Assembly (NCBI RefSeq): GCF_026242055.1
Contig: NZ_JAPJDL010000008.1
Location: forward strand, 1 to 64,000
DNA length: 64,000 bases
Reading direction: 5' to 3'
Origin: Lentzea sp. NEAU-D7
GTDB taxonomy: Bacteria; Actinomycetota; Actinomycetes; Mycobacteriales; Pseudonocardiaceae
A program made the translations under genes and the position numbers. Of this stretch, positions 36,483-56,202 are shown in pieces (position 1 is the stretch's first letter; each line of letters starts with the position of its first letter). The notes under the pieces were generated by a model. It was given only the letters and a program-made list of their open reading frames with translations. It searched no databases and had not been told where the DNA came from.

Positions 36483-37646
36483 TCATGGGTTGTGGTGAGA
36501 AGAAGCCTGTTCGCTGATCCGCCAGAAGAGGCGGTTCTCCATGCATCGCCGCAGATATTCGATGCCGTCCGTGCCGCCGGTCCCACCGATGGTCCCGATC
36601 ATGGACCTCGCGATGGAGTGGTGAGTGCGCTTCCACTTCTGATGACTCAGCTCCAGGTGCTGCAACGCGTTCGTCATCATCTCGCCCTCGACGACGCTCC
36701 ACCTGTCCTGATGACGGCCGTACCACGAGGACAACGTCTCGTGTCCGGACAAGGCGTGCAGCCGCACGTCGGGAACGGAGAGGAAGGCGGGGGAGTCGAG
36801 TCGAGCCCTCGTCGGCAAAGCGCAGAAGATCTCCACCAGCTTGTAGGCCTCCGACTGGATGGCGCTCGACCCGTCGGTTTGCATGCGAAAGGACCGGAAG
36901 TGCGCGGGAGGCATGGTGGCGAGCAGGCTGAACAGCCCTGACGCCTGGTCCAGGGTCGTCGCAGCCGAGTCGACGTGGCGGGCGACTTCCCGGACGCGGT
37001 CCGATCCCGCGGCCAGAAGTGCTTGCTCCAGCATCGTCGCCATTGTCGTGAAAACCGCCTCATAGCACTGCAGAACCCGGATGAAGAGGTACTCGTCGTG
37101 CTGGTCCGAGACGGGAAGAACGCTGAACCGCAGAATCTTCTCGACCGACTCCCCTGCAGGGGAGGCCCTCCAGTCCGCTGAACCGGCGCTTCCCCGCAGA
37201 AGATCTGTCTTGCGAATTCGCCTGAGCACGACCTGGTGGCTCGGCCGGCCGTTCGGCAGGAACTCGCTGTCGTGGTCGTCCAACGTCATCTGCTCGAACT
37301 CGGCCAGGTCGAGCAAGAGGTGCGACACCAGGTCCCGCCCGCTCTGGACGTCTCCCGGTGTGGGGAGCAGAGGACTCAGGACATCCAGTGCCAGGTAGCT
37401 CCGGTAGGAGTAGCGGTTCTCCGCCTTGTCCAGGACGCAGTCGTAGAACGCTGCGGTCGTCGGCTCGATCGCGGTGCCGGTGCGGCTCGCTCTGACCTGG
37501 TCCAGAACCTGCTCCGCGAGCCGGTCCTTGCCGTGTCGCAGAATCTGCGAGCGGATCGAGTGCGCCAGACCCGGTGTCGATCCGCCTTGCTGTGCACCGG
37601 TGGTGGAGGCCGCCGCGTGCTCGCTCACCGCACTGGTCGCGGTCAT
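36483..37646 (-). CDS. Tryptophan 2,3-dioxygenase-superfamily protein
   Basis: A 387-residue, mostly helical heme-protein candidate. The C-terminal block THHSIARSMIGTIGGTGGT matches the heme-ligand His and the GTGG loop of tryptophan 2,3-dioxygenase, and DEYLFIRVLQCYEA matches its HDEHLFI substrate-pocket helix. Sequence outside these blocks has diverged and is longer at the N-terminus. Some natural-product members of this superfamily act on indole substrates without opening the ring. Neighbouring decarboxylase and flavin monooxygenase genes suggest modification of tryptophan or a related amino acid. Fold assignment is good; reaction unknown. Confidence 0.75.
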   Translation of the reverse strand: MTATSAVSEHAAASTTGAQQGGSTPGLAHSIRSQILRHGKDRLAEQVLDQVRASRTGTAIEPTTAAFYDCVLDKAENRYSYRSYLALDVLSPLLPTPGDVQSGRDLVSHLLLDLAEFEQMTLDDHDSEFLPNGRPSHQVVLRRIRKTDLLRGSAGSADWRASPAGESVEKILRFSVLPVSDQHDEYLFIRVLQCYEAVFTTMATMLEQALLAAGSDRVREVARHVDSAATTLDQASGLFSLLATMPPAHFRSFRMQTDGSSAIQSEAYKLVEIFCALPTRARLDSPAFLSVPDVRLHALSGHETLSSWYGRHQDRWSVVEGEMMTNALQHLELSHQKWKRTHHSIARSMIGTIGGTGGTDGIEYLRRCMENRLFWRISEQASSHHNP

Positions 37647-37747: not shown

Positions 37748-38929
37748 TCAGATGTCACGTTGGAGAGCGGTGGGAACCGTGGCGCCCATCCTCGTCAGCG
37801 CATGAGCCTGGTACGGGCCGGCGTGGACGTTGATGGCGTGGTTCAGCCCGGCGTGCGCGTCGCGCCAGAAACGCTGCATCGGCCGATCCGAGCGCAGGGC
37901 GTTGCCGCCCGAGTGGCTGTAGAGGCGATCGAGTGCCTCCACAGCGCGTCGGCTGCCGCGGACCTGGTCGCAACGCGCGGCCGCGCGGATCTCGAACGGA
38001 ACCTCTTTCCCGGAGTCGACGATGTCCCACATCCGGCTCAGGTTGGCCATCATCTGAGCCCGTGCGGACTCGACCTCGGAGTAGCACTCGCTCAGTTGCG
38101 CCAGGAGGAACTTGTCCTCGCGAACCAGCCTGCCCGTCTCGTCGACCCGATCGCGCTGGTAGTCGAAGGACGCCGCGAGCGCCCCACGGCACATGCCGAT
38201 GACGGCCGCTGTGATCGCGTTGGGGAAGATGGCGGACCAGGGCATGCGGAAGAGGTTCTCGCTCCTGCCTGCTTCTCGTGCCGCGAGGCCACTTACGACC
38301 TTCTGCTCCGCAATCACGCGCTCGGCGGGAATGAACGCGTTGCTGACTGTGACGTCCTTGCTGCCGCTGCCGCGCAATCCGACCGCGTTCCACGACCCGT
38401 CGACGATCGTGTAGTCGCTTCGCGGCAGCAGCATGTGCAGAGTGCCCTCGGAGCCGGCGCGATCGCCTTCCGCGTCGACCACGGTCGCACCCAGCCAGGC
38501 CCATTCGCAGTGGTCCGTGCCGGACGAGAACTGCCACCTGCCGCTCAGGAGGTAGCCTCCCTCGACCGCGCGCGCCTTGCCGAAAGGCGAGAACGGCGAT
38601 GCGATCCAGGTGTCCGGATCGGCCGCCCACACGTCGTTCTGAACGGATTCCGGCATCAGGGCCATCTGTCAGGGGTGTGATCCGAGGACGCCTGCGACCC
38701 AGCCCGCGGCGCCGCAGGACGCGGCGGTGAGGATCACCGCGTCGAAGAAGTCGCGCGGATCGGCCTCGAGCCCGCCGTGCCTCGCAGGTTGCAGCATTCT
38801 CACCAGGCCGGTCTTCTTCAGGATGTCCGCAGTGTGCCCTGGAAGCGTCCCCAGCTCCTCCGCTTCGGCGGCTTGGGCTTCCAGCTGCACGCGTGAACCC
38901 TCAAGCCTTTCGAGAACATCGTTCACCAT
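37748..38929 (-). pseudogene. Group D flavin monooxygenase (HsaA/acyl-CoA-dehydrogenase fold), interrupted by an in-frame TGA
   Basis: Two frame-continuous pieces make one 393-codon gene of normal length. The N-terminal piece ends GVLGSHP, then TGA at 38669-38671, then the second piece continues in the same frame with QMALMPESVQNDVW. Relatives have Trp at the stop position (HPWQ), so TGG has become TGA. The C-terminal part has all the expected features (GRWQFSSGTDHC, LHMLLPRSDY, LRGSGSKDV, LYSHSGGNAL). The family uses reduced flavin and oxygen to hydroxylate phenols. An ATG two codons after the stop could restart translation. The start at 38929 follows GGAAGGA. Nonsense mutation, readthrough, restart or a sequencing error are all possible. 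Confidence 0.75.
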
Positions 38930-39005
38930 GTCAGGCAGTCCTTCCCTGCTCATGTCAGCCGATTTCGGCGTCGAGGTCGTCGGATCGGAAGTGCGTGCTC
39001 GTTCA

Positions 39006-40220
39006 TCACGGGGTTTTGAGCTCCTCCGCCGCAAATCTCGGCTTCAGCCGGAAATGCAGCAGATACGCCGTCGCGGCGGCGGACAGTGCACACAGGACGG
39101 GCAGGAGGAAGGTCGCGCGGGAACCCATCTCGTCCGCGATTCTGCCGACCGCGGCTGTGCCCGAACCGAAGCCGAGCGAGAGACTGGACCACACCCAGTT
39201 CATCCCCTCGGTCTGGATCTCCACCGGAACGAGCTCGCCGAGCAGGTGGAAGGCGTTGATCACGGTCGGTGCCATGCTGAGACCGTTGACCGCAGAGCAG
39301 ACCATGAGGGCGACGAAGCTGTCCGCGGTGAGGTAGAGGACGGGGAGCAGGCCGAACGCCGAGGCGCTCAAGGCAAGTCGAAGCGGCGCCGTCCTGGTTC
39401 GTGTCCGTGCGCCGTAGAGGATGGCCGAGACGCCACTGCCGACCGCGAAGCAGGCCAGGACAAGACCGGCGCCACCGGGGTCGCCCAGTTCGCCCGTGCG
39501 TGCCACGAGCAGCACTTCCGCGGAGCCACAGGTCGCTCCGACCGCGAGCAGCAGTACGAGCAGCAACGGCATGCCCGGATACCGCGCGGCGAGGCGTCGG
39601 TTCACACGGGCGGCGGGAGGTCGCCGGAGCGGCTCGGTGCGGCGCTGGAACAGCAGCCAGGTCCCACCGCAGGCGGAGAGCAGGAACGCCGAGGCGACGG
39701 CGAGATAAGGAGAAACCTCGATCGCGAGTGCCGCCGCCAGAAGAGGACCGATCGCGAAGACGACCTCGTCCAGAACCGTTTCGACCGAGTAGGCCGCAGA
39801 CCTCTCAGGAGTGTCGTCCGCCCACAGCGCTGCCCATCGCGCACGTGTCATGGGGCCGGTGTTGACCACCGAAGCGCCGAGGAGAAGCGCCAGGACCAGG
39901 GTCGCCGGGAGAGACGAGTCGAGTGCGACTGCCCCGAGCATCATCGCGGCGAGCACGAAATGGGCGACAAGGGACAAGAGCACGGTCTTGTACTGCCCGA
40001 AACGGTCCGCGACCATCCCGGCGACGGGGCTGCCGAGTGCGTTTCCGATCGTCCAGCACCCGCTGACCAACGCGGCCTTCCCGTACTGGCCGGTGGGCAA
40101 CGCCAGCAACAGCAGCAGAGCGAGCGGGTAGATCCCGACGAAGAGGCGTGACACCACACCCGCCGTGCAGAAGGACGCGGCCCCCCTCTTGGAGAAGGCG
40201 CTGCGGTAAGCGTCGAACAC
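39006..40220 (-). CDS. MFS transporter, probable product exporter
   Basis: A 404-residue polytopic membrane protein with about 12 hydrophobic segments in two halves and an intracellular loop near residue 200. A motif-A-like stretch (GMVADRFGQYKTVLL) follows the second helix, as in major facilitator superfamily drug/metabolite exporters. It starts with GTG after GGAGG. It heads the leftward operon with the flavin monooxygenase, dioxygenase-like and decarboxylase genes, so export of their product, or self-resistance, is likely. Substrate is not predictable. Confidence 0.85.
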   Translation of the reverse strand: MFDAYRSAFSKRGAASFCTAGVVSRLFVGIYPLALLLLLALPTGQYGKAALVSGCWTIGNALGSPVAGMVADRFGQYKTVLLSLVAHFVLAAMMLGAVALDSSLPATLVLALLLGASVVNTGPMTRARWAALWADDTPERSAAYSVETVLDEVVFAIGPLLAAALAIEVSPYLAVASAFLLSACGGTWLLFQRRTEPLRRPPAARVNRRLAARYPGMPLLLVLLLAVGATCGSAEVLLVARTGELGDPGGAGLVLACFAVGSGVSAILYGARTRTRTAPLRLALSASAFGLLPVLYLTADSFVALMVCSAVNGLSMAPTVINAFHLLGELVPVEIQTEGMNWVWSSLSLGFGSGTAAVGRIADEMGSRATFLLPVLCALSAAATAYLLHFRLKPRFAAEELKTP

Positions 40221-40506: not shown

Positions 40507-41469
40507 CTAGCCCTGTGGCAGCGGCACGGGAACGGTCGAGGAGATCAGGTTCTCGGCGCGCAGGTCGGACCAGAGGGCGGCGGGCACTTCGCCGGTGGCC
40601 ATCGCGGCGTTCTCGGTGATCTCCGCCGCCGACCGGGCGCCGACCGCGATGGCCCGCACCGCCGGATGCCCGAACGGGAAGTGAAGCGCCGCCTGCGGAA
40701 GCGGGACGCCGTGCCGCCGGCAGATCTCGGCGATCCTGCGGGCGCGTTCGACCAGCGCGGCCGGTGCCGTCGTGTAGTCGTGTGTGGCATCGGCCGGGAC
40801 CTCCTGGCGGGCCAGCAGTCCCGAGTTGAAGACCCCGGCCGCCACGACGAAGACACCTCGTTCCTCGCACAGCGAAAGGAAGTCCGCAGTCGTGGCGTGT
40901 TCCAGCAACGTGTACCGGCCGGCCAGCATGACGTAGTCGAGGGGATGCTCGAGCACGAACCGCTCCGCCACCTGCCACAGGTTGACGCCCACACCGATCC
41001 TGCGGACCACGCCCTGGGCCTTCAGCTCCGCCAAGGCCGGCAACGCCTCACGCAGGACCTGCTCGCCGTGGTCGTCCGGATCGTGGACGTAGACGAGGTC
41101 GATCCGGTCCAGGCCGAGCCGCGCCAGCGAATCCTCCAGCGACCGGCGCACCCCGTCCGCGCTGAAGTCCCACACCCGGCGATGGGTGGCGGGCACCGCG
41201 AAACCCTCGGCCAGGTCATCACCGCCTGTGTCACAGGGCTGCAGCAGCCTGCCGACCTTGGTGGAGATGACGAACTCCGACCGGGGCCGGTCCGCGAGCG
41301 CCGCACCGAGCCGCCGTTCCGACAGACCGAGCCCGTAGTGCGGAGCGGTGTCGAAGTACCGGACGCCCGCCTGCCACGCGGCGTCGACGGTGGCTCGGGC
41401 GTCCACATCGGACACGGCCCGGTACAGGTTCCCCAGCGCGGACCCGCCGAGGCCGAGGCCGTCGATCAC
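40507..41469 (-). CDS. Aldo/keto reductase of the L-fucose / L-galactose dehydrogenase type
   Basis: A 320-residue aldo/keto reductase with the tetrad Asp40 and Tyr45 (FDTAPHYG), Lys71 (STKVGR) and His129 (VYVHD). The inserted segment after STKVGRLL and the DFSADGVRRSLEDSL stretch resemble aldose 1-dehydrogenases that oxidise L-fucose, and plant L-galactose dehydrogenase (FDFSAERV...SL). L-fucose is 6-deoxy-L-galactose, so activity on L-galactose is plausible. The expected reaction is sugar plus NAD(P)+ to aldono-lactone. The GTG start overlaps the stop of the mutarotase gene (GTGA), a tight functional pairing because such dehydrogenases use one anomer. Confidence 0.85.
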   Translation of the reverse strand: MIDGLGLGGSALGNLYRAVSDVDARATVDAAWQAGVRYFDTAPHYGLGLSERRLGAALADRPRSEFVISTKVGRLLQPCDTGGDDLAEGFAVPATHRRVWDFSADGVRRSLEDSLARLGLDRIDLVYVHDPDDHGEQVLREALPALAELKAQGVVRRIGVGVNLWQVAERFVLEHPLDYVMLAGRYTLLEHATTADFLSLCEERGVFVVAAGVFNSGLLARQEVPADATHDYTTAPAALVERARRIAEICRRHGVPLPQAALHFPFGHPAVRAIAVGARSAAEITENAAMATGEVPAALWSDLRAENLISSTVPVPLPQG

Positions 41470-41777
41470 GGCAGCTCCCACACGAACTTCGTGTCCGAGC
41501 GGCCCGAGTCGTAGTCGAGGGGAGCGTCGAGGAACTCGTCCATCTTCTGTTGCCACGGGATGTCGGCGGGGTGCCCGTGCATCTGCCGCATCATGGCCGC
41601 GTAGTCGTCCACCTCGACGACGTGGAAGAGGTCGAGACCGCTGCGCCAGATCCGCCACGACCGCACCCCCGCCGCACGCAGTGCCGCGTCGAGCTCGTCG
41701 GGAATCCGGGCGTGCGCGGCCTCGTAGGCGGTTTCCTTGCCCGGCTTCAGCCTGGTGTGCAGGGCGACTGTCTCCAT
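41466..41777 (-). CDS. L-rhamnose mutarotase-family protein
   Basis: A 103-residue protein of the RhaM (YiiL) dimeric alpha/beta-barrel family, the same length as E. coli RhaM. His22 in AAHARIPDEL sits where RhaM has its catalytic His22 (RRHNPIWPEL), and the domain ends in the family-typical YLP-like tail (WELP). These enzymes interconvert sugar anomers and often accompany L-fucose, L-rhamnose or L-galactose dehydrogenases. The ATG at 41777 follows the isomerase relic. It overlaps the dehydrogenase gene by four bases. Confidence 0.85.
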   Translation of the reverse strand: METVALHTRLKPGKETAYEAAHARIPDELDAALRAAGVRSWRIWRSGLDLFHVVEVDDYAAMMRQMHGHPADIPWQQKMDEFLDAPLDYDSGRSDTKFVWELP

Positions 41778-41799
41778 GGTGCCGATCACCTTTCGATCA

Positions 41800-42334
41800 T
41801 GTTGCCGGGCGGCGTTCAGGGCGCGGGGTTCGTCGCCGTGGACGCGGCGGCGCGTTCGGCGCACTTCCGGGCGGCAAGGTGTCGACCAAGCCTTCCCAGT
41901 CCTCGTCCCCGAGGCCCGCCGGCAGCGGACGTGGCTGCAGTCGAACATCACCTTCACGTTCGACCGCCCGATGTCCTCCATCAGCTCCATGGCGTCTTCG
42001 CCGCTCTCGCACAGGTTCGAGTTCTCCGCGAGTGGCTCGATCACCACGGTGAGGCCGTACTGCGCGGCGTCATCGGCGACCTGGGCCGGACATTCGCTAG
42101 TGCTCCACGGTCGCTTCGCGTTCTTCGACCACTGGAGAGCTCGGGTTGTAGCCGGGACCTCCAGAGGGCGCGGGCCCGATACCCGAGACCTCGATACCGT
42201 GGTCGTCGAGCAGGGCTGCGCACTTCGCGCCGCCTGGCCGGGCTCAGGTACGGCGGATAGGCGTGGGATGCGGCGGCGCCGATGTCGATGCCGTCGTACC
42301 CGATCCGCGCCAGCCGCTTGATGGTCTCGTGGAG
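41800..42334 (-). pseudogene. Relic of a sugar-phosphate isomerase/epimerase (TIM barrel)
   Basis: Pieces of a xylose-isomerase-like TIM barrel occur in different minus-strand frames. Just after the oxidase stop one reads ETIKRLARIGYDGIDIGAAA; near 42060-41930 another reads YGLTVVIEPLAENSNLC and NVKVMFDCSHV. The N-terminus and C-terminus are missing and the middle is frame-shifted, with an in-frame TAG near 42095. The gene is therefore dead. Its place in the sugar operon suggests it once took part in the same pathway. Confidence 0.7.
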
Positions 42335-43666
42335 TCAGTGTTCGAAGAGCTCTCGCAGGTGCCCTCCGAGGAAGACGCCGTCCGGGTCCCAGGCCTTGCG
42401 CAGTTCCTGGAACCGGCTCCAGTCCGGATAGCGCGCGGCCAGCTCCTGACCCGTCCTGGAGTGGACCTTGGCCCAGTGCGGACGGCCCTCGAACTCCCAC
42501 AGCACCGACTCCACGGCGCGAAGCGGTGCGATCCACCTCTCCGGATCACGCTCCGACACGGGGTGTGTCACGCCGATGTGGCAGGTGATGGCCTGCCTGC
42601 TCGGGCTGAGCCAGGCGGTGTCCGCGGCGGTGAAGCGGACGTCCACCGGTGCGCAGACGCGTGGGCCGCCGCGACGCACCTCCCCGACCAGGGCACGGAT
42701 CGCGTCGGCCGCCCGGTCGAACGGGACGCTGTACTCGGTGCCCTGCACGGGTGGTGGGAGGTGGTGCAGGAGAGCGTCGTCGCAGCGCATGACCTGCGCA
42801 CGTCCCCGGCCGGCGGCAAGGGCGGCAGCGTAGTGCGCGGTGCCTGCCACCAGCGGCGGCCAGGAGTTGTTGCACAGCAACGAGAGCAGGGCACCGGGCG
42901 GTCCCGGTGACGGGGTCGGTGGCTCGTCCGTCGGCGCGGCCTCCCAGACGATCGCCTGTGAGGTGTGCGGGTACCACCAGAAGCCACCGAAGTGGACTTC
43001 CCGGAACCTGTCGAGACCGGCCAGCACCTCCGTCAGCGGCCTGCGAAGAACGACTTTGCGCAGCCGGTGGCCGGGCACGACGGCGAAGGTGAGGTCCAGG
43101 ACCACGCCGAGACACCCGAGGTGCACGCGGACGCCGTCGAGCTCCGGGTCGTCCTGCGTGATCGTGCGCACCTGGCCGTCCGCGGTGAGGATGCGCGCCG
43201 ACACGACGTGGCTGGAGAGCGTGCCGTGCCTGGGACTGCTTCCGTGCGTCGCCGTGGCCACGGCGCCGGCGACGGTCTGTTCGTCGATCGCGCTCTGGTT
43301 CGGCAACGCCAAGCCCGCTGCGGCTAGTTCCTGGTTCAGTTCGCGCATCGTCGTGCCCGCCTTCACCGTGACCGTCATGGCCGCCGGGTCGACGGCGACG
43401 ATGCCGCGGTGGTGGCGCAGGTCGACCAGCGTCCGGCCGGTCGGCGCGACCAGGTTCGCGTACGAGTGCCCCGACCCCACCACGCTGATGCCGCGTGCGC
43501 GTGCGGTGGCGTCGAGCACGACGTCGCGCAGCTGGTCCGCGGTGCGGGGAGCGAGAAGCCGGTCCGCGATGCCACGGACCGCCCCGCTCCAGTTGGACCA
43601 CGCCGTGCGACCGCGTTCCCCGGTGCCGAGCACCAGACCAGGCGTCGACTGCGGTGCGTCGGTCAT
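42335..43666 (-). CDS. FAD-linked aldonolactone oxidase (L-gulono/L-galactono-lactone oxidase family)
   Basis: A 443-residue VAO-type flavoprotein. It shows the NWSG entry motif near residue 25, the FAD-binding GSGHS (His67 is the likely covalent FAD link), ATATHGSS in the second FAD loop, and the C-terminal family block GRPHWAKVHSRTG with YPDWSRFQELRKAWDP. Relatives oxidise L-gulono-, L-galactono- or D-arabinono-1,4-lactone, giving ascorbate-type enediols, or oxidise alditols. The Lys-x-His of the HWAKVH motif matches the lactone oxidase signature. The ATG at 43666 lies three bases after the epimerase stop. Alditol oxidase is the main alternative. Confidence 0.83.
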   Translation of the reverse strand: MTDAPQSTPGLVLGTGERGRTAWSNWSGAVRGIADRLLAPRTADQLRDVVLDATARARGISVVGSGHSYANLVAPTGRTLVDLRHHRGIVAVDPAAMTVTVKAGTTMRELNQELAAAGLALPNQSAIDEQTVAGAVATATHGSSPRHGTLSSHVVSARILTADGQVRTITQDDPELDGVRVHLGCLGVVLDLTFAVVPGHRLRKVVLRRPLTEVLAGLDRFREVHFGGFWWYPHTSQAIVWEAAPTDEPPTPSPGPPGALLSLLCNNSWPPLVAGTAHYAAALAAGRGRAQVMRCDDALLHHLPPPVQGTEYSVPFDRAADAIRALVGEVRRGGPRVCAPVDVRFTAADTAWLSPSRQAITCHIGVTHPVSERDPERWIAPLRAVESVLWEFEGRPHWAKVHSRTGQELAARYPDWSRFQELRKAWDPDGVFLGGHLRELFEH

Positions 43667-43668
43667 CT

Positions 43669-44700
43669 CTACCTCGTGGTCAGCCGCTCGGCGAACTCGT
43701 CCGTCGTCATCCGCTCCGCCTGCCGCGACTCGAAGTACCACTCGGTGAGCCTCTTGAGACCGGTGTGGAACGGCACCTCTGGCGTCCAGCCGAGGCGCTC
43801 GAACGCCATGGCGGCGGAGGCGACCCGGTTGTACGGGCCGGTCGGCTTGTCCGGCAACGGCTTGATCTCCGTGTCGGCCTGGCCGGTGAACTCCAGGATC
43901 ATCCTGGCCGCTTCCCTGACCTGGATGGGCTCCTCGGTGCCGAGGTTGATGGCGCTGCCGTCGTGGAGACGTTCTCCGGCGAGGACCAGACCGCGCACGA
44001 TGTCCGTGACGTAGGTCCAGTTGCGGATCTGGGTCCCGTCGCCCCAGACCTCGAACGGCTGCTGCTGGATGAACGCCCGGCCCACCATGGCGGTCAGGGC
44101 GTGGCTTTCCGGGCAGCGCTCGCCATAGACCGTGAACAGTCGGCACGACACCGACGGGAAGCCGAGTTCGGCGTGGAGTGCGGCGAGCCGCTGTTCGGTC
44201 ATCAGCTTGGCCCAGCCGTAGATCCCGTCCGCGTGGAACGGTGGCCCCACCTGGGTTTCGGTGAGCCGCACCTCCTCGTTCACGTCGGCCTGCAGGTCGA
44301 CCGGGTAGACGCAGCCGGAGGAGGCGAAGACGAAGTTCTCCACCCCCTTGTCAACTGCCGCCTGCGTGACGACGCCGTCCAGGACGAAGTTGCGCGAGCA
44401 CGCGGCCTGGTGCAGCTCGATGAACCCCCGTCCCCCGTGGATCGCGGCGAGGTGGAAGACAACGTCGATGCCACGCATCACCTCGGCGGCGAGCCGCGGG
44501 TCGCAGAGGTCGCCCTCCACGAACTCCCAGGCGGACTTCGGAACAGCGCTGAGGTTCTCCAGACGCCCCGAGCTGAGATCGTCGGCGACGCGCACCTCGG
44601 CGCCGGCGCCGACCAAGTGCTCCACCAGGTGCGATCCGATGAACGAGCAGCCGCCGGTGACCAGAACTCGCTTACCGTGCCAGAATTCCTGCTGGGGCAT
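43669..44700 (-). CDS. NAD-dependent sugar epimerase, GDP-mannose 3,5-epimerase-like
   Basis: A 343-residue extended SDR with TGGCSFIG for NAD binding and the Tyr161-x3-Lys165 pair in YGWAK. SSGCVYP at 127-133 places Cys130 where plant GDP-mannose 3,5-epimerase has its catalytic Cys145 (SSACIYP). HLAAIHGGRGFI and VWGDGTQIRNWTYVTD also match that enzyme. The second acid/base of the plant enzyme (Lys217) appears to be His200 here, so reaction outcome may differ (for example 3- or 5-epimerisation alone). The ATG at 44700 has GGAGATC upstream; it is first in the leftward sugar operon. Confidence 0.83.
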   Translation of the reverse strand: MPQQEFWHGKRVLVTGGCSFIGSHLVEHLVGAGAEVRVADDLSSGRLENLSAVPKSAWEFVEGDLCDPRLAAEVMRGIDVVFHLAAIHGGRGFIELHQAACSRNFVLDGVVTQAAVDKGVENFVFASSGCVYPVDLQADVNEEVRLTETQVGPPFHADGIYGWAKLMTEQRLAALHAELGFPSVSCRLFTVYGERCPESHALTAMVGRAFIQQQPFEVWGDGTQIRNWTYVTDIVRGLVLAGERLHDGSAINLGTEEPIQVREAARMILEFTGQADTEIKPLPDKPTGPYNRVASAAMAFERLGWTPEVPFHTGLKRLTEWYFESRQAERMTTDEFAERLTTR

Positions 44701-45032
44701 GAGTGATCTCCATTCGTGAGAACGGGCCGCGGTGTTTTTCGGGGCGGTCGCAGTCGAGATTTCTCGATGACCGGGAGAACTGCCCCGGCACCGCAATGCC
44801 GGTCGGAGGAAGCGAGTATGCGTCAGCAGCACCGTCCATCCCCAGACCCGTTCCGCTTCACGGAACAGAATTGGGAACGAGCCCGGCAGAGCAGCATCGG
44901 TTCCAGCGTGCGGAACGAGGGATGGCCCATCGTGCAATCGGCCCCTACCTTTCTGCGGAAATGTGCTCGAGGCGGCCGGGCCGGAATACGGGTCCGGCCG
45001 CGGCCGTGATCATCACTGGAAGGCGGAGGGTG
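44701..45032. promoter_or_regulatory. Divergent intergenic region, epimerase versus Nudix genes
   Basis: About 330 bases between divergent genes, presumably holding both promoters. Short frames occur but none is protein-like. Shared control of the epimerase and the Nudix hydrolase would follow from this layout. No operator was identified. Confidence 0.4.
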
Positions 45033-45599
45033 ATGGCTGGACCGCTCAAGTCCGTGCAGTCGGAGGCACTGCCCGCTCTACCCGCGCTCGACTGGCGTGA
45101 CGGCGGCGGTGCGGCAGGACAAGCCTGGGTACCGGAGCAGCTGTACCGCGAGATCCTGGAAACGATGCCCGTCGTGTGCGTGGACACGCTCGTCGTCCGC
45201 GCCGGCGAGGCGCTGCTCACCCGCCGCCGCCAGGAACCTCAGGCAGGCTCGTTGTGGCTGCAGGGCGGCCGCATGCGCAAGGGTGAGCAACTCGCCGAGG
45301 CCGCGTTGCGCACGGCCGAGCAGGAGTCCGGGCTGAGCCTGACCTTGCGCAGCGTGCTGGGAACCTTCTCCACCGTTTTCGAGGCCTCAGCCCACGGCGA
45401 CTCTTCCACCCACACCGTCAACGTCACCTTTCTCGCCAGCACCGAGCACGACGCCCGGCCACAGGTCGACAGCACGCATGACGAATTCGTCTGGTGGCCG
45501 CTGACAGAACCCACCGGGAACGCCTACCTCGACCAGCTCTTCGTCCTGGCGACGCAACAGTTGAGCGGGGTCTGTCAAACGAACGACTCTGGCTCGTAG
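45033..45599 (+). CDS. Nudix hydrolase, GDP-mannose mannosyl hydrolase-like
   Basis: A 188-residue Nudix protein. The box at 78-101 reads GGRMRKGEQLAEAALRTAEQ and continues ESGL; the usual Glu after the Arg is Thr. E. coli GDP-mannose mannosyl hydrolase has the same kind of modified box (GGRVQKDETLEAAFERL) and a matching entry region, and its enzyme splits GDP-mannose to GDP and the free sugar. That mechanism would release a free hexose from a GDP-sugar. The ATG at 45033 follows GGAGGG. The last residues (CQTNDSGS) may come from the adjoining insertion element, so the C-terminus may be altered. Confidence 0.78.
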   Translation: MAGPLKSVQSEALPALPALDWRDGGGAAGQAWVPEQLYREILETMPVVCVDTLVVRAGEALLTRRRQEPQAGSLWLQGGRMRKGEQLAEAALRTAEQESGLSLTLRSVLGTFSTVFEASAHGDSSTHTVNVTFLASTEHDARPQVDSTHDEFVWWPLTEPTGNAYLDQLFVLATQQLSGVCQTNDSGS

Positions 45600-45642
45600 T
45601 CGGTGGTGACGTCGAGTAGCTGTTCGCAATCATGATCTTGTG

Positions 45643-45898
45643 ATGACGGTCGATTCCCTTGTGGGGACGGTGTTCTCCGGACGGTCGGCGTTGATCGTTG
45701 AGGACGTGTCGGACGGCGACGGCATGGTGGCGGTCACGGCTCGCACTCGGGATGTGGCCGTGCCGTGTCCGTTCTGCGGGATTGCGACGGCGAAGGTGCA
45801 CGGGTATCACCACCGGACGGTGAAGGATGTGCCGGTCGATGCTGCCAGGTCGTCGTCCGCCTGCGCGTGCGGCGGCTGGTCTGCCCGGTCCGGGCCTT
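45643..45898 (+). pseudogene. ISL3-type transposase, N-terminal relic
   Basis: From an ATG at 45643 the frame shows the ISL3 N-terminus, with a CPFCG zinc-finger start and HGYHHRTVKDVPV. A frameshift near 45845 moves the match to another frame (VVVRLRVRRLVCPV), and the gene is cut off by the left end of another insertion element at 45899. Most of the transposase is missing. Confidence 0.7.
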
Positions 45899-46414
45899 GT
45901 GCGTGCCGAGAAATACGTCCGTGCAGGTCAGCAGGCATCGGCATGTTGCCGATCATCATCGGGCATGATCGCGGCCGTGCTGGTCCGCTTCGCCTACCTC
46001 GCCGTCTCTCACGTCTTCGCCGCGCTGTGGCTCCTGCGCATGACCGAGCGTGAGAAGGATGTCGAGATCCCTCGCGTTACGCCACCAACTCGCGGTTCTG
46101 CACCGGCAACTCGACGGTCAGCGCCCACGATTGCGGCCAGAGGACAGGACGTTGCTCGCGGCCCTGCTGGTGCCTTTGGCCCGCGCGACGCTGCGTCGGC
46201 CCGGATACGGTGCTGAGGTGGCATCGCGACCTGATGAAGCGCCGCCATGCCCGAACGAGCGTGAACCGTCGGCCTGGACGTCCGCGCACTGTCGCTTCGA
46301 TTCGCCGTCTCGTCCTGCGCCTGGCAAGCGAGAACCCGTCGTGGGGGTATCGACGCATTCACGGTGAACTCGCGCTTCTCGGTGTCGCGGTCGCCGCATC
46401 GACGGTGTGGGAGA
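45899..46414 (+). mobile_element. Left end fragment of a DDE insertion sequence
   Basis: This stretch matches the left 500 or so bases of the element at 54944-56152, including the terminal gtgcgtgccgagaaatacgt and the beginning of the transposase (MIAAVLVRFAYLAVSHVFAAL). Indels break the frame. Similarity stops after gtgtgggaga at 46414. The right end of a copy of the same element is at 47817-48087, so the two may be halves of one IS opened by an insertion or deletion. Confidence 0.8.
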
Positions 46415-48284: not shown

Positions 48285-51200
48285 GTGGACGGGGATAACA
48301 CGTCAACGACATCCAACCAAATCGCGGGGGATGTCCTGGGGAACGCCTTGCTGGCTGGTGTCATCCATGGTGACGTGCACCTCCACCAGGGTGTGCAGCA
48401 ACAGGTCAACGAACACCACGAACCACCAGAAAGCTGGCACACGCTTCCCGCGCTTCCGCGAGAGGTTCGATCGCTGCTGCGCGCGCAGCTGACGATGGCG
48501 GAGGAACCGCCCTATCGACTGAGGGGCGCGCGGCAGCCGTCTTTGGACACTGTCCATGTTCAGCAAGACCTCGGTACCTCCACCGACGAGTCGCAGCCTG
48601 AACACGCGCGGCCTGTTCCGATCGTGCACGAGGACGATCAATGGATTGGTATGCCACCTACGGCCCGTGTGGTTCGGTTGGCGGTCCGGCCGCCGGCTCG
48701 CACGATTCGCCAGGCGCTCGACGGCGACGACCATCTGATCGTGACCGGCGGCCCTGGGCAGGGGAAGTCCACGATGCTGCAGCGCCTTGTTGCCGAGACA
48801 GCACAGCGTTGGATGAGATCGGACAGCTCCGAGCCGCCGTTGTTCGAGATCGTGGTGCCGCTGAAGGTGACCGCGCGAAACCTTGCTGCCCGTGCCCGTG
48901 ACGGCCTGCCCTTCGCGCAGCTCCTAGCGGATTGCGTTGGAGTCGAGTACGCCGCCATGATGCTGTGCGACCAGGTTGGCGCTGACGTCCTGGCGCGCAG
49001 GGTGGTGGGGTGTCGCTGGTTGCTTCTGGTCGACGCTCTCGACGAGGTGGCCGACCCCGCCGAGCGGGAGCACCTGGTAAAGGTGCTGGCCATGATCACC
49101 TCGGACGTTGACGAATCTCCCTACCGCATCGTCCTCACCACCAGGCCGATCGAAGGGAGTGGCCTCGCCCCGCTTCATCGCATCGGTGCGAACCGGTACG
49201 AGCTCCTGCCGTTCGACGACAAGGCGGTCCAACGTTTCGCCGAACACTGGTTCGCAGAGGTCGGGGAGAACTGTGCCTACCGCTTCCTGCAACAGGTTCG
49301 CGATGCTCACCTCGATGAGCTGGCGCGGGTGCCTTTGCTCGCGACGATCGCCGCGATCATCTTCGAACAGCGCGGTGACCGGCCGCTACCGGACAACCGG
49401 TATGAGCTGTACGACAGATACCTGGCTCAGCTCGCCGCAACACACGTCGTAATGGAGGGACCTTTCGAGGCACACCGCGTCAAACTGCTCGAACATCTTG
49501 GTCGCACGAGGCTGGATACGGACACCTCGCTCGTCGTGGCAGCCTGCGAATGGGCCACGAAACACATGTCCGCAGATCAGCTCACCTTCGGCTGGGAAAC
49601 ACGACTCGTCTCGTTCCTTGCTGCAGTGGGACCGATGATAATCCGCGGTGACGACGACCTGGCGTTCATGCACCACAGCTTCGCCGATCACCTGGCCGCT
49701 TCTGCGAGGGCTCGAGAGCTTCCCCCACACTTCGAGCCCGATCACACCGCGTTCGCCCGCTTGGTGCACGACGCACGGCCCGAGGACGCGGGTGAGCACA
49801 GCCGAGCGGTCCTGGTCCACTACACCCGCCTCCTGCCGGCCGAGGCCGACCATCTCATGCGTTGGCTGCACACGGGCGAGGCTGAACAGCACTTGCTGGC
49901 AGCTCGACTGCTCGCCCAGCACCTCCCGGCAAGTGCGGACGTCATCGACGTGTTCCTCGGAACCGTGCGGGGATGGGCGATTACGACGCACTACCTCAGT
50001 ACGGAGATCCTCGGGCAGGCCAGCCGCGCTACGCATCATCCGCGCCTGGCCACCTGGCTGGTCGGACTGATGCGCGATGTCTGCATGCCATGGCGATCAC
50101 GCCTGGAAGCGGCCACCGCACTTGCAATCAGATTGCGCGACGCGAACCACGGCGGCGAAGCGCTCCAGTTGTTGCGGTCGGTCGTCGACGAGCAGACGGT
50201 TTTCGTCGATCACCGCCTGGCGGCGGCAGAAGCCCTGGCGCAGAGCAGCACTGACGAACGGGAAACTGCTGAACGTGGTCTACGGGCAGTGCTGACATCC
50301 CGATCAGCGAATGGTGCTCAATGCCGAGCCGCAGCCGTGGTACTGGCAAAGTTCGGTCCGGCCGCACGTGAAGACGCCGTAACGGCACTGTCGGCGTTGT
50401 TGGAGAACCAGTACACGCCGACAGAAGATTTTCTTGAAGCGGCGACAGGCTTAATCGAGATTGGTGTCGAGTTTTACGGCAGAAGCGCCGATGCGTTCAG
50501 GACGGTTCTGCGAGACCCCGTCCTCGATCCATCCTCTCGTCGTGGTGCTGCGTTGGGTCTGGCGTGTCTAGGGTCTGATCAGTTGGACGAGGCGGCAAGA
50601 TATTTGAATGTCCTCTTTGATGACCTCCGATATCATTCAAGTAGTCGGACCACCTTTGCTGCTGCGTTGGCCGAACTCGGCCCTCTGTATAAATTTGCAG
50701 CGCGTAAGTTGCTTTTGAGACTTCTTGTTGAACCTGCGGTCGATCCTTTTGATAAAGTATGGTGTATTCGCGAGTTGAGTCAACTCGGCCCACAGTTCAG
50801 AAGTGACACTCTACCGTTGTTGCGCGATGTTCTGCGAGACACATCGACCAGCGCGAACAACCTGATGTGGGTGGCAGAGTTGTTTGCAGAGCTCGGCCCA
50901 GATTTTTGCGACGAGTCTGCCGAAATCGCGCGGCGCGTGCTTGAAGATCATCTGCTCGGCGTTGATGAGGAAGTTCGTGCATTGGACCTGCTCATCGGAC
51001 TTGGCGAACCGTACAGATCTCCGGCTGTGGCTAGGCTGCGCCGATACCTAAGTGGCATTGGCACTGACCCTCGTATGCGCTGCGAAGCGGCCAATACTCT
51101 CATTCGTGTAGGCCCTGAACTTCACGCTGAAATCGTCGAAGCGTTGTTGAAAGTTGCTCATGGAAACAACAGGCCCGAGTTAATTGCGCGCGCGTGGAGA

Positions 51201-53555
51201 TCCCTGCTTGGCCTCGGAGTGGAGTATCGGGACAAGGCGTTGCGAGAATTGTCTTGTCTGATGCAAGAGGGCGGTGTCGCAATTAATATTGCTTGGGGCG
51301 TCGCCCGAGTTTTGTCTTCCGGCGGGGGTGATCCGACGCAGGTTGTCGGGACCGCAATGGGGGCTGTACTTGGGGATGCTAAGCGAGCTGTTCGAGATCG
51401 AGTGCAGGCAGCGCGAGGCATGTTGCAGCTCGGGGCGAAATTTCATCAGTCTGCCGTCGACGGTGTTCTTGAGATTCTTTCGGAACGAATAGCGGGCCTG
51501 AATTACGCGAACGTCGTCAGGCCATTTGTGTCCGTTGGGCCTGGCCACCGCATGCGGCTGGCTGACGGATTGCATTCGATTGTGCAGGATCCTGATGCGC
51601 TCGTCCTTGAGGTATGGAATGCGATCAGTGCTTTGAATGAACTAGGCTTCGGGCAGTCTGCGGAAGTGGTTGTTTCGCTGCGAGAAATCGTCCACGACGA
51701 TTTCCTTGAGCCACAGGAAAGCCTGTTGGCTGCAGTCCTGTGGGCCCGCCTCGTGCCCGAACAAGTCGCTGACTCGACGGCGCGGGTTCTTGCTGCTGTG
51801 CACGAGGTTCAGCCTGCTCGCTGGAGGCGGGCGCTGCTTGACCTTGTCCGGCTCGGGGCTGACGTGGTTGTACCACTCCGGGCGATCTTGCAGAGTTCGA
51901 ACTATAGGGTTGTTCGGGAATCCGTCGCATCAGTGTTAGTTGACCTCACGGGCGAGGGTGTTGAAGAACTTCGTGACCAAGCCGCGGATGACTGTCTGGG
52001 AGACGAGTCCCGCAGTCGCGTGATGGCTAGGCTAGTGGAACTGGACAACTCCGCGTCGGCTAAAATCGTCGACCACCACAGGGAGGTGTTCCGCGACGAG
52101 TCCGCGCCCATCGCGATCAGATGCGCGGCTGGTTACCGACTGGTCAGGCTTGACCAGTCTGAGATGAAAACCGTCTCGTCGGCACTCCGGCATCTCGCGG
52201 CCAGCTCTGAGATCACGCCGAGCGAACGAGAAGCCTGTATAGAACGGCTCGACTTCTTGATCCCAGCAAGGCTCGATGACGTCGTGAACCTTGCCGTTGG
52301 TGCTGCCAGAAATCCTGGCGCAGAGAAATCGGCTCGCCGAGGGATACTTCGTGTCCTGCCACCTGACGTCCGCTTGGAGGTCGAGCGCGGCTTGCTTACT
52401 GACCACACAATTTCGATCGAGCACCGCTTGCCTCGGCCTGGACTGTGGGGCGAGAATCCGCTGGCGGCGGAAATAGAAACTGAGGTCCGCGATGTGCTGA
52501 CGGCGCCCGAATTCTCACGGCGCGAGAAGGTCGTCGCTGCATCGGCGCTGGCGAGTTCGTCGGCGAGGCTTGTCCAGGAAGCGCTTGGGTATCTTGAGCA
52601 CCTGTCGAATGAACCCGGTGTTGCCGACTCGGCGAGGCTGCAAATCGCCAAACTTGGAGTCGAACACCGAAATCGCATTCGACAAACTGCTTACGACACC
52701 GCGTCCGATGTCACGAAACCCGTGCGCGAGCGGTTTCGATGCGCAGTGATGTTGAGGAAGCTTAGTCTACATCGTCGTCCACAGATGACAGACCTGTGGC
52801 GCGAGGTGGCAGCGGACTGCCTGCACCCCGTGTTGTGGCGTGTCCGTGCGCTCATCGAGTTGAGTCGCGTCGACGGCTTGAGTGCACTGCGCACCATGCG
52901 TGACGACGAACGAGCACACCCTGTGGCGCGTTGGAAGATCGCGAAGCACCTCGTTGCTGCCGCAGTTGACGATCGAGCGGCTGGGGTGCAGGTGCTCGGC
53001 GCCATCGCGACCGATCTCCGTCTTCCGGCGGGCATGCGGTGGCGAGCGGCAGAGGACCTCTCTGAACTCGGTATCCGAGGTCACGAGGAGGCGTCGCAGG
53101 CGCTCTGGGTGATCGCAAACGACGACGCCAACCCCGTCACCGCCCGTGCTAACGCCGCTGCTGTTCTTGGCAAGATCTCTCCGGCTCGGCGTCGAGATGC
53201 TCGGAAGATCCTGGTTCTCTTGTCGACGGTTGGCAAGCCGATGCTGCGTAAGCAGGTATTGCGATCGCTTGGCACGATCGAACCGGACGTGGCCGCGCGG
53301 GAGTTGCGGGCGATGGCGCTTGACTGCGATCTTGGTCCCGTTGTGCGCCTTCGCTGTTCCAACGCGATGGTGGAACTGCGTCGTGATCTCCGTGAGGAGG
53401 CCGCGCTGGTTGCTCGTGCGATTGCATATGACGAGTCGGTGAGTCGTCAAGTGCGCGTTGGAGCCGCTCGTACTCTGGCGCACTGCAGCGCTCTCTTTCG
53501 CGAAGAGGCGCGCGAACTCGTTCGGTCGTTGGCGACACGGCCATGCGGAGCTTGA
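48285..53555 (+). CDS. NACHT-domain NTPase with long HEAT-like repeat region
   Basis: A 1756-residue STAND-type NTPase. The N-terminal 120 residues are short and variable, opening with SNQIAGDVLGNALLAGVIHGDVHLH-like sequence common to actinobacterial NACHT proteins. Walker A is GGPGQGKST (155-163), and Walker B is WLLLVDALDE (245-254), the NACHT form with acidic residues after the Asp. A winged-helix-like region follows, and from about residue 600 to the end there are repeated helix pairs of HEAT/ARM character (AAxxLAxLG...). Bacterial NACHT proteins act in phage defence or regulation by ligand-triggered assembly. No effector enzyme domain is fused, so a partner such as the nuclease-like gene downstream may act. 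GTG start after AGGAGA. Codons around 50450-51700 are unusually AT-rich, with several TTA Leu codons, a sign of transfer. Confidence 0.87.
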   Translation: MDGDNTSTTSNQIAGDVLGNALLAGVIHGDVHLHQGVQQQVNEHHEPPESWHTLPALPREVRSLLRAQLTMAEEPPYRLRGARQPSLDTVHVQQDLGTSTDESQPEHARPVPIVHEDDQWIGMPPTARVVRLAVRPPARTIRQALDGDDHLIVTGGPGQGKSTMLQRLVAETAQRWMRSDSSEPPLFEIVVPLKVTARNLAARARDGLPFAQLLADCVGVEYAAMMLCDQVGADVLARRVVGCRWLLLVDALDEVADPAEREHLVKVLAMITSDVDESPYRIVLTTRPIEGSGLAPLHRIGANRYELLPFDDKAVQRFAEHWFAEVGENCAYRFLQQVRDAHLDELARVPLLATIAAIIFEQRGDRPLPDNRYELYDRYLAQLAATHVVMEGPFEAHRVKLLEHLGRTRLDTDTSLVVAACEWATKHMSADQLTFGWETRLVSFLAAVGPMIIRGDDDLAFMHHSFADHLAASARARELPPHFEPDHTAFARLVHDARPEDAGEHSRAVLVHYTRLLPAEADHLMRWLHTGEAEQHLLAARLLAQHLPASADVIDVFLGTVRGWAITTHYLSTEILGQASRATHHPRLATWLVGLMRDVCMPWRSRLEAATALAIRLRDANHGGEALQLLRSVVDEQTVFVDHRLAAAEALAQSSTDERETAERGLRAVLTSRSANGAQCRAAAVVLAKFGPAAREDAVTALSALLENQYTPTEDFLEAATGLIEIGVEFYGRSADAFRTVLRDPVLDPSSRRGAALGLACLGSDQLDEAARYLNVLFDDLRYHSSSRTTFAAALAELGPLYKFAARKLLLRLLVEPAVDPFDKVWCIRELSQLGPQFRSDTLPLLRDVLRDTSTSANNLMWVAELFAELGPDFCDESAEIARRVLEDHLLGVDEEVRALDLLIGLGEPYRSPAVARLRRYLSGIGTDPRMRCEAANTLIRVGPELHAEIVEALLKVAHGNNRPELIARAWRSLLGLGVEYRDKALRELSCLMQEGGVAINIAWGVARVLSSGGGDPTQVVGTAMGAVLGDAKRAVRDRVQAARGMLQLGAKFHQSAVDGVLEILSERIAGLNYANVVRPFVSVGPGHRMRLADGLHSIVQDPDALVLEVWNAISALNELGFGQSAEVVVSLREIVHDDFLEPQESLLAAVLWARLVPEQVADSTARVLAAVHEVQPARWRRALLDLVRLGADVVVPLRAILQSSNYRVVRESVASVLVDLTGEGVEELRDQAADDCLGDESRSRVMARLVELDNSASAKIVDHHREVFRDESAPIAIRCAAGYRLVRLDQSEMKTVSSALRHLAASSEITPSEREACIERLDFLIPARLDDVVNLAVGAARNPGAEKSARRGILRVLPPDVRLEVERGLLTDHTISIEHRLPRPGLWGENPLAAEIETEVRDVLTAPEFSRREKVVAASALASSSARLVQEALGYLEHLSNEPGVADSARLQIAKLGVEHRNRIRQTAYDTASDVTKPVRERFRCAVMLRKLSLHRRPQMTDLWREVAADCLHPVLWRVRALIELSRVDGLSALRTMRDDERAHPVARWKIAKHLVAAAVDDRAAGVQVLGAIATDLRLPAGMRWRAAEDLSELGIRGHEEASQALWVIANDDANPVTARANAAAVLGKISPARRRDARKILVLLSTVGKPMLRKQVLRSLGTIEPDVAARELRAMALDCDLGPVVRLRCSNAMVELRRDLREEAALVARAIAYDESVSRQVRVGAARTLAHCSALFREEARELVRSLATRPCGA

Positions 53556-53831
53556 GCAAGGTTGTGCCGCTCGAAAAGTCGTCGCTGCACGTCACGCGCG
53601 GCATCTGCACACGTTTGATGAGTCCGCTGGGGAACGAGATGTGTTGCAGTCTGCGGGTGGCGTGGTCGTCTGTCGTAGATTTTGTCGAGCAGCAGGGCAG
53701 GTCACCGCCTGACTCGGCCAACGCGATGTTTGTTTACGGTCATCTGGGCCGTGCCCTGAGACGACTGCCGTTGCAGCATTCGACTCGACGGAGAAAGGCT
53801 TTCGGCTGACCGTGCGTACGGATGCAGCACC

Positions 53832-54929
53832 ATGACCAAGCCGATTCGCCATCTGGTGCCGCTGGGCGCTGAGAACAAGTGGAGCGACTTGGTCGCGACG
53901 CTGATCGAGCTGGATCCGGACCCGGTGGCTGACCTGTTGGGCCTTGGCGACTTGCCGGCCCACGTCTCGGTCGAACGCGAGGCGTCGGCCGGCAGCGGCG
54001 GCCGCGTCGACCTCCTCATCAGCGTGGGCAATGAGAAGCGCTGCGTCGCGGAGGCGAAGGTCCTGTCTGGCCTCGGGCTCGACCAGTTGCGGCGCTACCG
54101 CGACCACTTCGCGGGCGTTCCCCATCACGTGCTGATCACGTTGGAGCACTTTCCGATCGACGTCCCCAGCTCTGCGGGATGGCGCTCGGTGCGCTGGGAG
54201 GACCTGCTGCGGGCGTTGTCCAGAAGTAGCGTCCCACTGGTCGCGCAGACGGCGTCCACCTGGTTGTCCTACGTCGACGGGGAGATGCCACGGCTCTCGG
54301 CGGGCACGCGATGGAACGACCTGCGAGACGGCGAGGGCTTCGTCATCGCCATGCGTGCCCGGATGGCATGGGTGTACCGCCAGCTGCGGCCACCACCCGA
54401 TGTCGAGCACGACCTGGTGAGCTCGTCGGCCGGCCAGAGCTGGGTAGCGAGGCTCTACGCGCCCGCCCGGAAACCGGGCTACTGGGTCCACGTCGAGGCC
54501 GAGGAACGACTCAGTGTCCAGGCCTACCCCAAGCACGCGGGAGATCCTAGGTGGGGAAGTGTCCAGGGACCGTCGGTGAAGGTCTGCCTCATGCAGAGGG
54601 ACGTGCGCACGTCCGCAGACTTCGACTGGACCTACCTGCGCTCGCTGTGGCCGACGATGGAGGCCGCGCGACACGACTGGGTGAGCACCTCGGCCAACCC
54701 CAAGGCCCCGCACGACCGAGCAGCGTGGAAACAGATGATCGCTGACGGCGGGCCGCGACACCTCGGCATCGGCTTCGGCGAGAAACAGGCCAAGCAGCGC
54801 GGCCAATGCATGTTCGGCGCCCGGTTCCAGCTACCGGCCGACGCCACGCTCGGCACGATCGCCGCGGAACTCAACTCGACGTCGAAGCTGCTACTCGAAC
54901 TCGCCGCGCTCCCTTACGAGGTCTCCTGA
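53832..54929 (+). CDS. PD-(D/E)XK nuclease-superfamily protein
   Basis: A 365-residue protein. Residues 45-95 carry the nuclease core pattern: Asp60 in GGRVDLLI, then Glu74-Ala-Lys76 in CVAEAKV, and a following helix GLGLDQLRRY. This D...ExK arrangement is the metal site of PD-(D/E)XK nucleases. The C-terminal 200 residues are not recognised. ATG at 53832. It lies 276 bases after the NACHT gene in the same direction and is followed within 14 bases by the insertion sequence. Together they may form a sensor-effector defence pair; this is inference. Confidence 0.7.
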   Translation: MTKPIRHLVPLGAENKWSDLVATLIELDPDPVADLLGLGDLPAHVSVEREASAGSGGRVDLLISVGNEKRCVAEAKVLSGLGLDQLRRYRDHFAGVPHHVLITLEHFPIDVPSSAGWRSVRWEDLLRALSRSSVPLVAQTASTWLSYVDGEMPRLSAGTRWNDLRDGEGFVIAMRARMAWVYRQLRPPPDVEHDLVSSSAGQSWVARLYAPARKPGYWVHVEAEERLSVQAYPKHAGDPRWGSVQGPSVKVCLMQRDVRTSADFDWTYLRSLWPTMEAARHDWVSTSANPKAPHDRAAWKQMIADGGPRHLGIGFGEKQAKQRGQCMFGARFQLPADATLGTIAAELNSTSKLLLELAALPYEVS

Positions 54930-54943
54930 CCATCTGCGGCGTT

Positions 54944-54975: not shown

Positions 54976-55009
54976 GCAGGCATCGACGTGCTAGCGATCA
55001 TCCTCCGGC

Positions 55010-56152: not shown

Positions 56153-56202
56153 AGGGCCCCGGACAACCGGGTGAACCGCTGTGATCTCGCTGGACGCCGC
56201 AA

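Follow-up and report, generated by a model that had tools for sequence, protein, structure and literature searches.

In Lentzea sp. NEAU-D7 we find a conserved and rare gene cassette that may encode a bacterial route to a compound of the ascorbate type. It lies in the first 64,000 nucleotides (the window) of NZ_JAPJDL010000008.1, a contig of 349 kb in a genome of 9.3 Mb. The genes encode a short-chain dehydrogenase/reductase (SDR) of the nucleotide-sugar epimerase kind, a Nudix hydrolase, a RhaM-type sugar mutarotase, an aldo/keto reductase (AKR) and an FAD oxidase resembling aldonolactone oxidases; a further gene, for a TIM-barrel protein, is decayed. We propose, with a probability of roughly 0.45, that this cassette is mobile and that its substrate, a hexose activated by a nucleotide (GDP-D-mannose being the likeliest), is turned into a 2-keto/enediol lactone of the ascorbate type.

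The five proteins named in a first-pass annotation of this DNA are all encoded, with Pfam matches and tblastn self-matches free of stops (Table 1). That annotation was silent on strand, in which the Nudix gene is divergent from the other cassette genes, and overlooked both the sixth, decayed gene between those of RhaM and the oxidase and the loss of the second catalytic residue of GDP-mannose 3,5-epimerase from the SDR. A fusion of RhaM with a TIM barrel was considered and rejected, the 356-residue open reading frame (ORF) being RhaM behind an out-of-frame pseudogene.

Table 1. Cassette genes and other features of the window, with positions counted from its first nucleotide.
Feature	Position	Strand	Evidence or remark
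AKR, L-galactose/L-fucose dehydrogenase type, 320 residues	40507..41469	-	PF00248, 173.8 bits (longer ORF)
RhaM-type sugar mutarotase, 103 residues	41466..41777	-	PF05336, 66.9 bits, cut-off 23.4 (longer ORF)
TIM-barrel pseudogene, sugar 3-epimerase-like, AP_endonuc_2	41904..42340	-	three fragments against the L. xinjiangensis protein
FAD aldonolactone-oxidase-like protein, 443 residues	42335..43666	-	PF04030, 146.9 bits; PF01565, 104.9 bits (longer ORF)
NDP-sugar SDR epimerase, Cys130/His200/Arg292, 343 residues	43669..44700	-	PF01370, 153.7 bits (longer ORF)
Nudix hydrolase, Gmm-like, 187 residues	45036..45599	+	PF00293, 48.9 bits (longer ORF)
Major facilitator superfamily (MFS) transporter adjoining the cassette	39006..40220	-	PF07690, 83.4 bits
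Polyketide synthase (PKS), nonribosomal peptide synthetase (NRPS), old yellow enzyme (OYE)-type reductase, P450, salicylate synthase	11379-25260	+	
Glycosyltransferase	26089-27267		homologue in L. xinjiangensis
Tryptophan-dioxygenase (TDO)-like protein	36483-37646	-	partial TDO profile match, 55.8 bits
HsaA-like flavin monooxygenase	37748-39034	-	in-frame TGA at 38669-38671
Transposase remnant	45640-46053	+	
Transposase remnant	55680-56123	+	
NACHT and HEAT protein (1756 residues), then TIR, CHAT and TPR proteins	48285-61719		

With the oxidase as query, genome contigs yielded six loci and whole-genome searches of the family two more, which together with the window makes nine loci in eight genomes. 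They are found in Lentzea sp. NEAU-D7, L. xinjiangensis, L. aerocolonigenes, L. albida (two copies), Nocardia sp. NRRL S-836, Streptomyces sp. NBRC 110028 and two related actinomycetes (G234 and G273, conjecturally Amycolatopsis because oxidase matches occur there); six of the loci, the window included, form a Lentzea group. The contexts of the homologues from S. axinellae, L. flaviverrucosa, Lentzea sp. DG1S-22 and A. keratiniphila stand, under those names, outside this comparison. The Nudix, SDR, oxidase and TIM genes lie side by side in all nine loci, so that we rejected a chance neighborhood, and in six loci RhaM and AKR genes join them, always in one order. In G234 and G273, which lack both, an MFS-type gene is located between the oxidase and the TIM gene.

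The five genes are thus part of a conserved cassette, and this cassette is rare. At E ≤ 1e-75, the oxidase was found in seven of the 390 genomes searched in the family, including its own, in one of 394 genomes of the class (its own) and in one of 295 genomes of a Streptomyces set (the starting genome of that search); at E ≤ 1e-90, the SDR was found in one of 345 genomes of the class, the one that had supplied the query. Within the Lentzea group, the SDRs are 94-96% identical and the RhaM protein of the window is 91-97% identical to those of the other five loci. Since the flanks differ between groups of loci while the SDRs of the Lentzea group are this similar, the cassette appears to move as a block. 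A literature search, mostly of open-access papers, found no description of the cassette or of its gene combination; judged by their sequences, the parts are of known kinds and their combination is apparently new.

The SDR had been described as similar to GDP-mannose 3,5-epimerase (GME, also GM35E), with a conserved catalytic cysteine. The cysteine is present (C130), and the similarity extends to the Ser/Tyr/Lys triad and an arginine, but it breaks down at Lys217 of GME and in the phylogeny. We computed a tree of 58 rows with a quick method (SH-aLRT support, midpoint root), in which the Arabidopsis enzyme is the only characterized GME and the wider family of the SDR is represented by 18 rows chosen among the first 120 of 7999 matches. 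The nine cassette SDRs and these 18 form a single clade (support 96), adjoining the GME homologues of bacteria (23 rows), that of Arabidopsis and Fcl of E. coli. The whole group is split from GalE, RfbB, RfaD, Gmd and two PDB sequences named GalE with a support of 99; the Fcl branch is very long (7.65), so its exact position is unsure.

All 27 cassette and wider-family rows retain Ser143, Cys145, Tyr174, Lys178, Arg243 and Arg306 (GME numbering), and the SDR shares with GME both glycines of the GGxGF stretch. In the same 27 rows Lys217, which is present in all 23 bacterial GME rows, is missing and Asn203 is replaced by threonine. The loop at Lys217 is shortened and, by alignment of hidden Markov models (HMMs), contains an invariant histidine (His200). 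An hhalign comparison with E. coli Fcl places SSGCVYP of the SDR on SSCIYP and SHA on SHV, superimposing the same histidine onto the Fcl histidine. Known GM35E enzymes include those of plants and Methylacidiphilum, BlmG and that of the A201A pathway. According to a review, GM35E uses a Cys/Lys pair with an arginine, whereas GDP-L-fucose synthase (GMER, Fcl) uses Cys/His with a lysine (PMC8787198). Judged from these alignments, the SDR carries a Cys/His set with arginine and so mixes features of both: it resembles GDP-L-fucose synthase in its cysteine acid and histidine base but has an arginine in place of the lysine that acidifies the cysteine. We therefore rejected the SDR as a true GME on the basis of tree and residues, despite its best profile score being to that family (163.6 bits, against 157 for a GalE). 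True GME homologues occur in 21 of 345 genomes of the class at E ≤ 1e-50, and at this threshold the genome of NEAU-D7 has none. If active on GDP-mannose, a Cys/His/Arg epimerase would be intermediate between epimerases and epimerase-reductases and would widen access to L-sugars.

The wider family around the SDR is large, with identities of about 55-65%, and its 18 members in the tree share the Cys/His/Arg set. Its sequences bear source names such as galE, UDP-glucose 4-epimerase and nucleoside-diphosphate-sugar epimerase, and we found no characterized member among the first 120 of the 7999 matches.

For the Nudix protein, the first-pass annotation had noted the modified box of GDP-mannose mannosyl hydrolase, and the departure is indeed of the same kind as in E. 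coli Gmm. Compared to what we take to be the usual Nudix box consensus, the glycine, the glutamate five residues on, the arginine and the last glutamate are kept, with threonine and glutamine at the two places usually held by glutamates. The best PDB matches are structures of Gmm (1rya, 2gt4), with 29% identity to the E. coli protein over 118 residues. In this alignment the arginine of KR/RR, the GGR and the HD are kept, with the aligned arginine and histidine presumably having catalytic roles, and the tyrosine of TTHY and the glutamine of EQHD are changed. E. coli Gmm (WcaH) reportedly accepts GDP-L-fucose with a low kcat, and the wild-type enzyme gave L-fucose in an engineered B. subtilis (PMC10037897). 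This activity provides a precedent for the release of an L-sugar in one step.

The resemblance of the AKR to L-fucose and L-galactose dehydrogenases, also proposed from the sequence at the outset, is borne out by PDB searches: its best five matches are all L-galactose dehydrogenases (126.7 to 105.7 bits), followed by IolS (84.9 bits). The RhaM assignment is supported by the family match given in Table 1, and the protein contains a histidine that we take to be catalytic. All eight cassette genomes have at least one AKR match outside the cassette at E ≤ 1e-25, and where the cassette lacks an AKR these chromosomal proteins show 51-56% identity. That such an L-fucose-type AKR serves in place of the missing one is a guess.

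The genome of NEAU-D7 also contains a paralogous RhaM-AKR pair (locus L056), whose RhaM is 46% and whose AKR is 61% identical to the cassette proteins. Pfam matches at this locus include a dehydratase of the MR/MLE type, a permease of a sugar ABC transporter and, on the other strand, a gene of the DHDPS family; by eye, the translations further suggest a reductase, an ABC ATPase, a binding protein and, directly after the AKR, a frame for an amidohydrolase-like lactonase. We take this gene content to be that of an oxidative pathway of the L-fucose type. In G234, a similar locus (L057) has RhaM directly before an AKR, followed by an Amidohydro_2 gene. L-fucose is 6-deoxy-L-galactose. L-fucose dehydrogenase reportedly acts on L-galactose, in a paper whose cited source concerns pork liver (PMC4396506). 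The RhaM-AKR pair of the cassette thus looks like a recruit from L-fucose catabolism: it preserves the position of RhaM directly before the AKR but, unlike the catabolic operon, lacks lactonase and dehydratase and has an aldonolactone-oxidase-like protein instead, which would replace the lactonase.

The FAD protein had been annotated as an aldonolactone oxidase, an assignment that its ALO domain and active-site arginine and lysine support. A tree, which the first-pass annotation had suggested as a test against alditol oxidases, comprises 81 rows; it was built with a quick method, has some long branches and uses 79 of 98 matches, with P0206-P0224, which have no ALO domain, left out. In it, the 11 rows that we labeled as AldO or xylitol oxidases form one clade (SH-aLRT 100, stem 1.2) and the cassette oxidases lie outside it, in a clade of their own with near relatives (support 100). 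The branching of this clade relative to the mammalian GULO-like and plant GalDH rows is not settled in the quick tree. We rejected an alditol oxidase on this placement, although AldO is the top PDB match. In a large protein set, a mammalian protein bearing the name L-gulonolactone oxidase scored 208 bits and the best protein named as a xylitol oxidase 159; GULO is absent among the listed PDB matches.

Like the aldonolactone oxidoreductases (GULO, ALO, GalDH and M. tuberculosis GUDH), the oxidase combines FAD and ALO domains with an HWxK motif, which reads HWAK in all 11 aligned rows, and with Arg344 and Lys400, both invariant in these rows; a WWYPHT stretch resembles GULO-type rows, unlike AldO rows. 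It further has a histidine (His67) at the place where we presume FAD to be bound covalently, which is shared by the GULO and AldO rows and missing from the ancestral GalDH row. Arg344 and Lys400 occupy the places of Arg388 and Lys456 of vGalDH, which are reported as conserved among aldonolactone oxidoreductases (PMC11099136). Differences to these enzymes, besides the separate clade, are found at the place of Glu386, where ten of the 11 rows have aspartate and one has glutamate, and at that of the oxygen gatekeeper, which is serine in the oxidase, alanine in GalDH and glycine in GULO (residue roles from the same source, PMC11099136).

The TIM protein is xylose-isomerase-like where the gene is intact (317 residues in L. 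xinjiangensis; Pfam AP_endonuc_2, 155.7 bits). Its NCBIfam relatives are fructoselysine 3-epimerase (77.7 bits), 5-keto-L-gluconate epimerase (70.6 bits) and D-psicose 3-epimerase (67.7 bits), with cut-offs of 300-305. The gene is full-length in seven of nine loci (287-317 residues matched) and damaged in two. In the window, three fragments match residues 44-85, 64-126 and 153-224 of the 317, two of them with stops, and this copy of the cassette is decayed in that one gene; elsewhere the genome offers a single match, weak and partial, of 28.9 bits. The L. aerocolonigenes gene (L021:7036-7863, + strand) has an open frame that lacks 24 residues in the middle of the protein relative to L. xinjiangensis. 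Both damaged copies belong to cassettes that include RhaM and AKR, of which there are six, numbers too small for a conclusion.

In the pathway that we propose, the SDR would oxidize the hexose at C4, invert C5 and perhaps C3 through its Cys/His pair and re-reduce the sugar, yielding a GDP-L-hexose of the galacto (or gulo) type. The Gmm-like Nudix protein would then cleave the C1-O bond and free the sugar, whose anomers RhaM would exchange and which the AKR would oxidize to a 1,4-lactone. The FAD oxidase would act on C2, its product enolizing to an ascorbate-type compound, and the TIM epimerase, where intact, might alter or divert an intermediate. These reactions, substrates and products are all predicted, from the genes, families, recurrence, gene order, residue sets and broken TIM gene that we observed.

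The order of these predicted reactions is that of the Smirnoff-Wheeler pathway of plants, with an epimerization of the GDP-mannose type, release of the sugar, an AKR dehydrogenase, for which the plant-type L-galactose dehydrogenase is the nearest relative, and an aldonolactone oxidoreductase. It differs in the Cys/His/Arg epimerase from another clade, in a Nudix protein replacing phosphorylase and phosphatase, in the additional TIM epimerase and mutarotase, and in the histidine at the FAD place of the oxidase. The plant-like logic advanced by the first-pass annotation hence stands as far as the cassette itself, the clade of the oxidase, the AKR and the Nudix relatives are concerned; it does not hold for the clade of the SDR, for the TIM protein, which is outside the plant route, or for the three loci without AKR and RhaM. 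As the TIM protein marks a departure from that route, we leave the end product open. Prokaryotic synthesis of vitamin C is described as unclear in one study (PMC11099136), and a 2022 review lists in-silico inferences for prokaryotes, earlier reports and an L-gulono-1,4-lactone dehydrogenase of M. tuberculosis (PMC9602106). A compact cassette recurring in Lentzea strains and a Streptomyces makes this question directly testable.

Several findings weigh against the proposed pathway. The SDR is outside the GME clade and has no catalytic lysine at position 217, and the Nudix protein (longer ORF) scores only 43.8 bits against the family of GDP-mannose mannosyl hydrolases (NF011963, cut-off 146). More generally, the curated NCBIfam cut-offs were not reached by the SDR, Nudix, AKR and TIM proteins or by the ORF bearing RhaM, in scans that covered these proteins. 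The oxidase has its best PDB score with AldO (138.4 bits, against 98.4 for an ancestral GalDH), and its aspartate at the Glu386 place and serine gatekeeper mean that substrate and electron acceptor are not fixed. RhaM and AKR are absent beside the cassettes of Streptomyces sp. NBRC 110028, G234 and G273, so the dehydrogenase step may not be obligatory, and among four AKR loci read outside the cassettes RhaM is adjacent in two (L056 and L057), with none nearby in the other two. Finally, a TIM gene is present in all nine loci, yet a plain ascorbate route has no step for it, and the two loci in which it is damaged have both RhaM and AKR.

That the product is L-ascorbate itself, made much as in plants but with the Nudix protein as a short cut, seems quite unlikely to us. 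Enzyme types are present for every step, no PKS or NRPS was recognized beside the second L. albida copy, which would fit a compound that is not processed further, and the damage to two of the six TIM genes in RhaM-AKR loci suggests that this gene may be dispensable. However, the SDR is not a true GME, a TIM protein that is full-length in seven of nine loci would be superfluous for ascorbate, and three of nine cassettes have no AKR beside them. An unlikely reading, though less so, has the cassette supplying a sugar-lactone or ketose building block to a neighboring polyketide or peptide, with the TIM protein epimerizing C3 or interconverting aldose and ketose in the free sugar or a 2-keto acid. 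This would give a role to a gene that all nine loci contain, seven of them at full length, and it agrees with the assembly-line or carrier-protein genes near the cassettes of the window, L. xinjiangensis, Nocardia sp. NRRL S-836, L. albida (copy 1), L. aerocolonigenes, G234 and G273. It is less compatible with neighboring clusters that differ between loci, with the lack of a recognized assembly line beside L. albida copy 2 or, in the ORFs scanned, downstream of the Streptomyces copy, and with the TIM damage in two of nine loci.

A glycosyltransferase in the window and its L. xinjiangensis homologue might also suggest that the SDR makes an NDP-sugar of the deoxysugar type for glycosylation, with Nudix, AKR and oxidase as unrelated enzymes of clean-up or resistance. 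We consider this very improbable, as in none of the nine loci a glycosyltransferase was recognized between the genes of the cassette and as SDR, oxidase and Nudix, being together in all nine, are hardly unrelated. Returning to the route towards an ascorbate-type lactone, its most far-reaching form, which we regard as doubtful, would be a laterally mobile bacterial pathway that evolved independently of that in plants. Such a pathway would combine a third kind of sugar-nucleotide 3,5-epimerase (Cys/His/Arg), release of the sugar by a Nudix protein in one step, a RhaM-AKR pair derived from L-fucose catabolism, an oxidase in place of a lactonase and a TIM protein leading to a stereoisomer or derivative of ascorbate for secondary metabolism.

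The cassette is often, but not always, found beside assembly lines. The cluster in the window contains a salicylate synthase (TIGR03494, 435.9 bits, cut-off 325.15), PKS, NRPS, P450s, a fatty acyl-AMP ligase (FAAL)-like enzyme, a KAS III-like enzyme and the glycosyltransferase. Relatives of its PKS, NRPS, OYE, P450 and salicylate synthase genes (86-94%) are located on the same 46-kb contig as the cassette of L. xinjiangensis. Five genes of the window (salicylate synthase, MFS, HsaA-like, TDO-like and pyridoxal-phosphate (PLP)-decarboxylase) have homologues in Nocardia sp. NRRL S-836 and at copy 1 of L. albida, and G273 has a FAAL and an acyl carrier protein in common with it (75-85%). The lack of recognized PKS and NRPS genes around L. 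albida copy 2 refers to five scanned ORFs and to tblastn searches with the window genes, which did detect, some 24 kb upstream, a gene of the acyl-AMP-ligase/reductase kind. For the Streptomyces copy, five downstream ORFs were scanned without recognizing an assembly line; the upstream side lies off the contig, whose first base is about 470 bases past the Nudix gene.

The MFS transporter adjoining the cassette is a possible exporter of the cluster product; in two other loci its homologues adjoin HsaA- and TDO-like genes, outside the cassette. The HsaA-like gene of the window, interrupted by an in-frame TGA, is a second damaged gene of the cluster, and L. albida and Nocardia sp. NRRL S-836 have open relatives of 393 residues. 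The TDO-like gene adjoins it, as it does in two other loci.

On the other side of the cassette, the genes for the NACHT and HEAT protein and the following TIR, CHAT and TPR proteins have the look of defense or signaling genes. The NACHT gene is flanked by the two transposase remnants, which comprise an ISL3 zinc ribbon and an rve_3 integrase core. Upstream of copy 2 in L. albida (L034:10122-19901 and L026:2-7450) lies an apparently continuous ORF of more than 5,700 codons with nearly no Pfam matches apart from a weak one to Gly_transf_sug, and on the other side is a gene for a WXG100-type protein.

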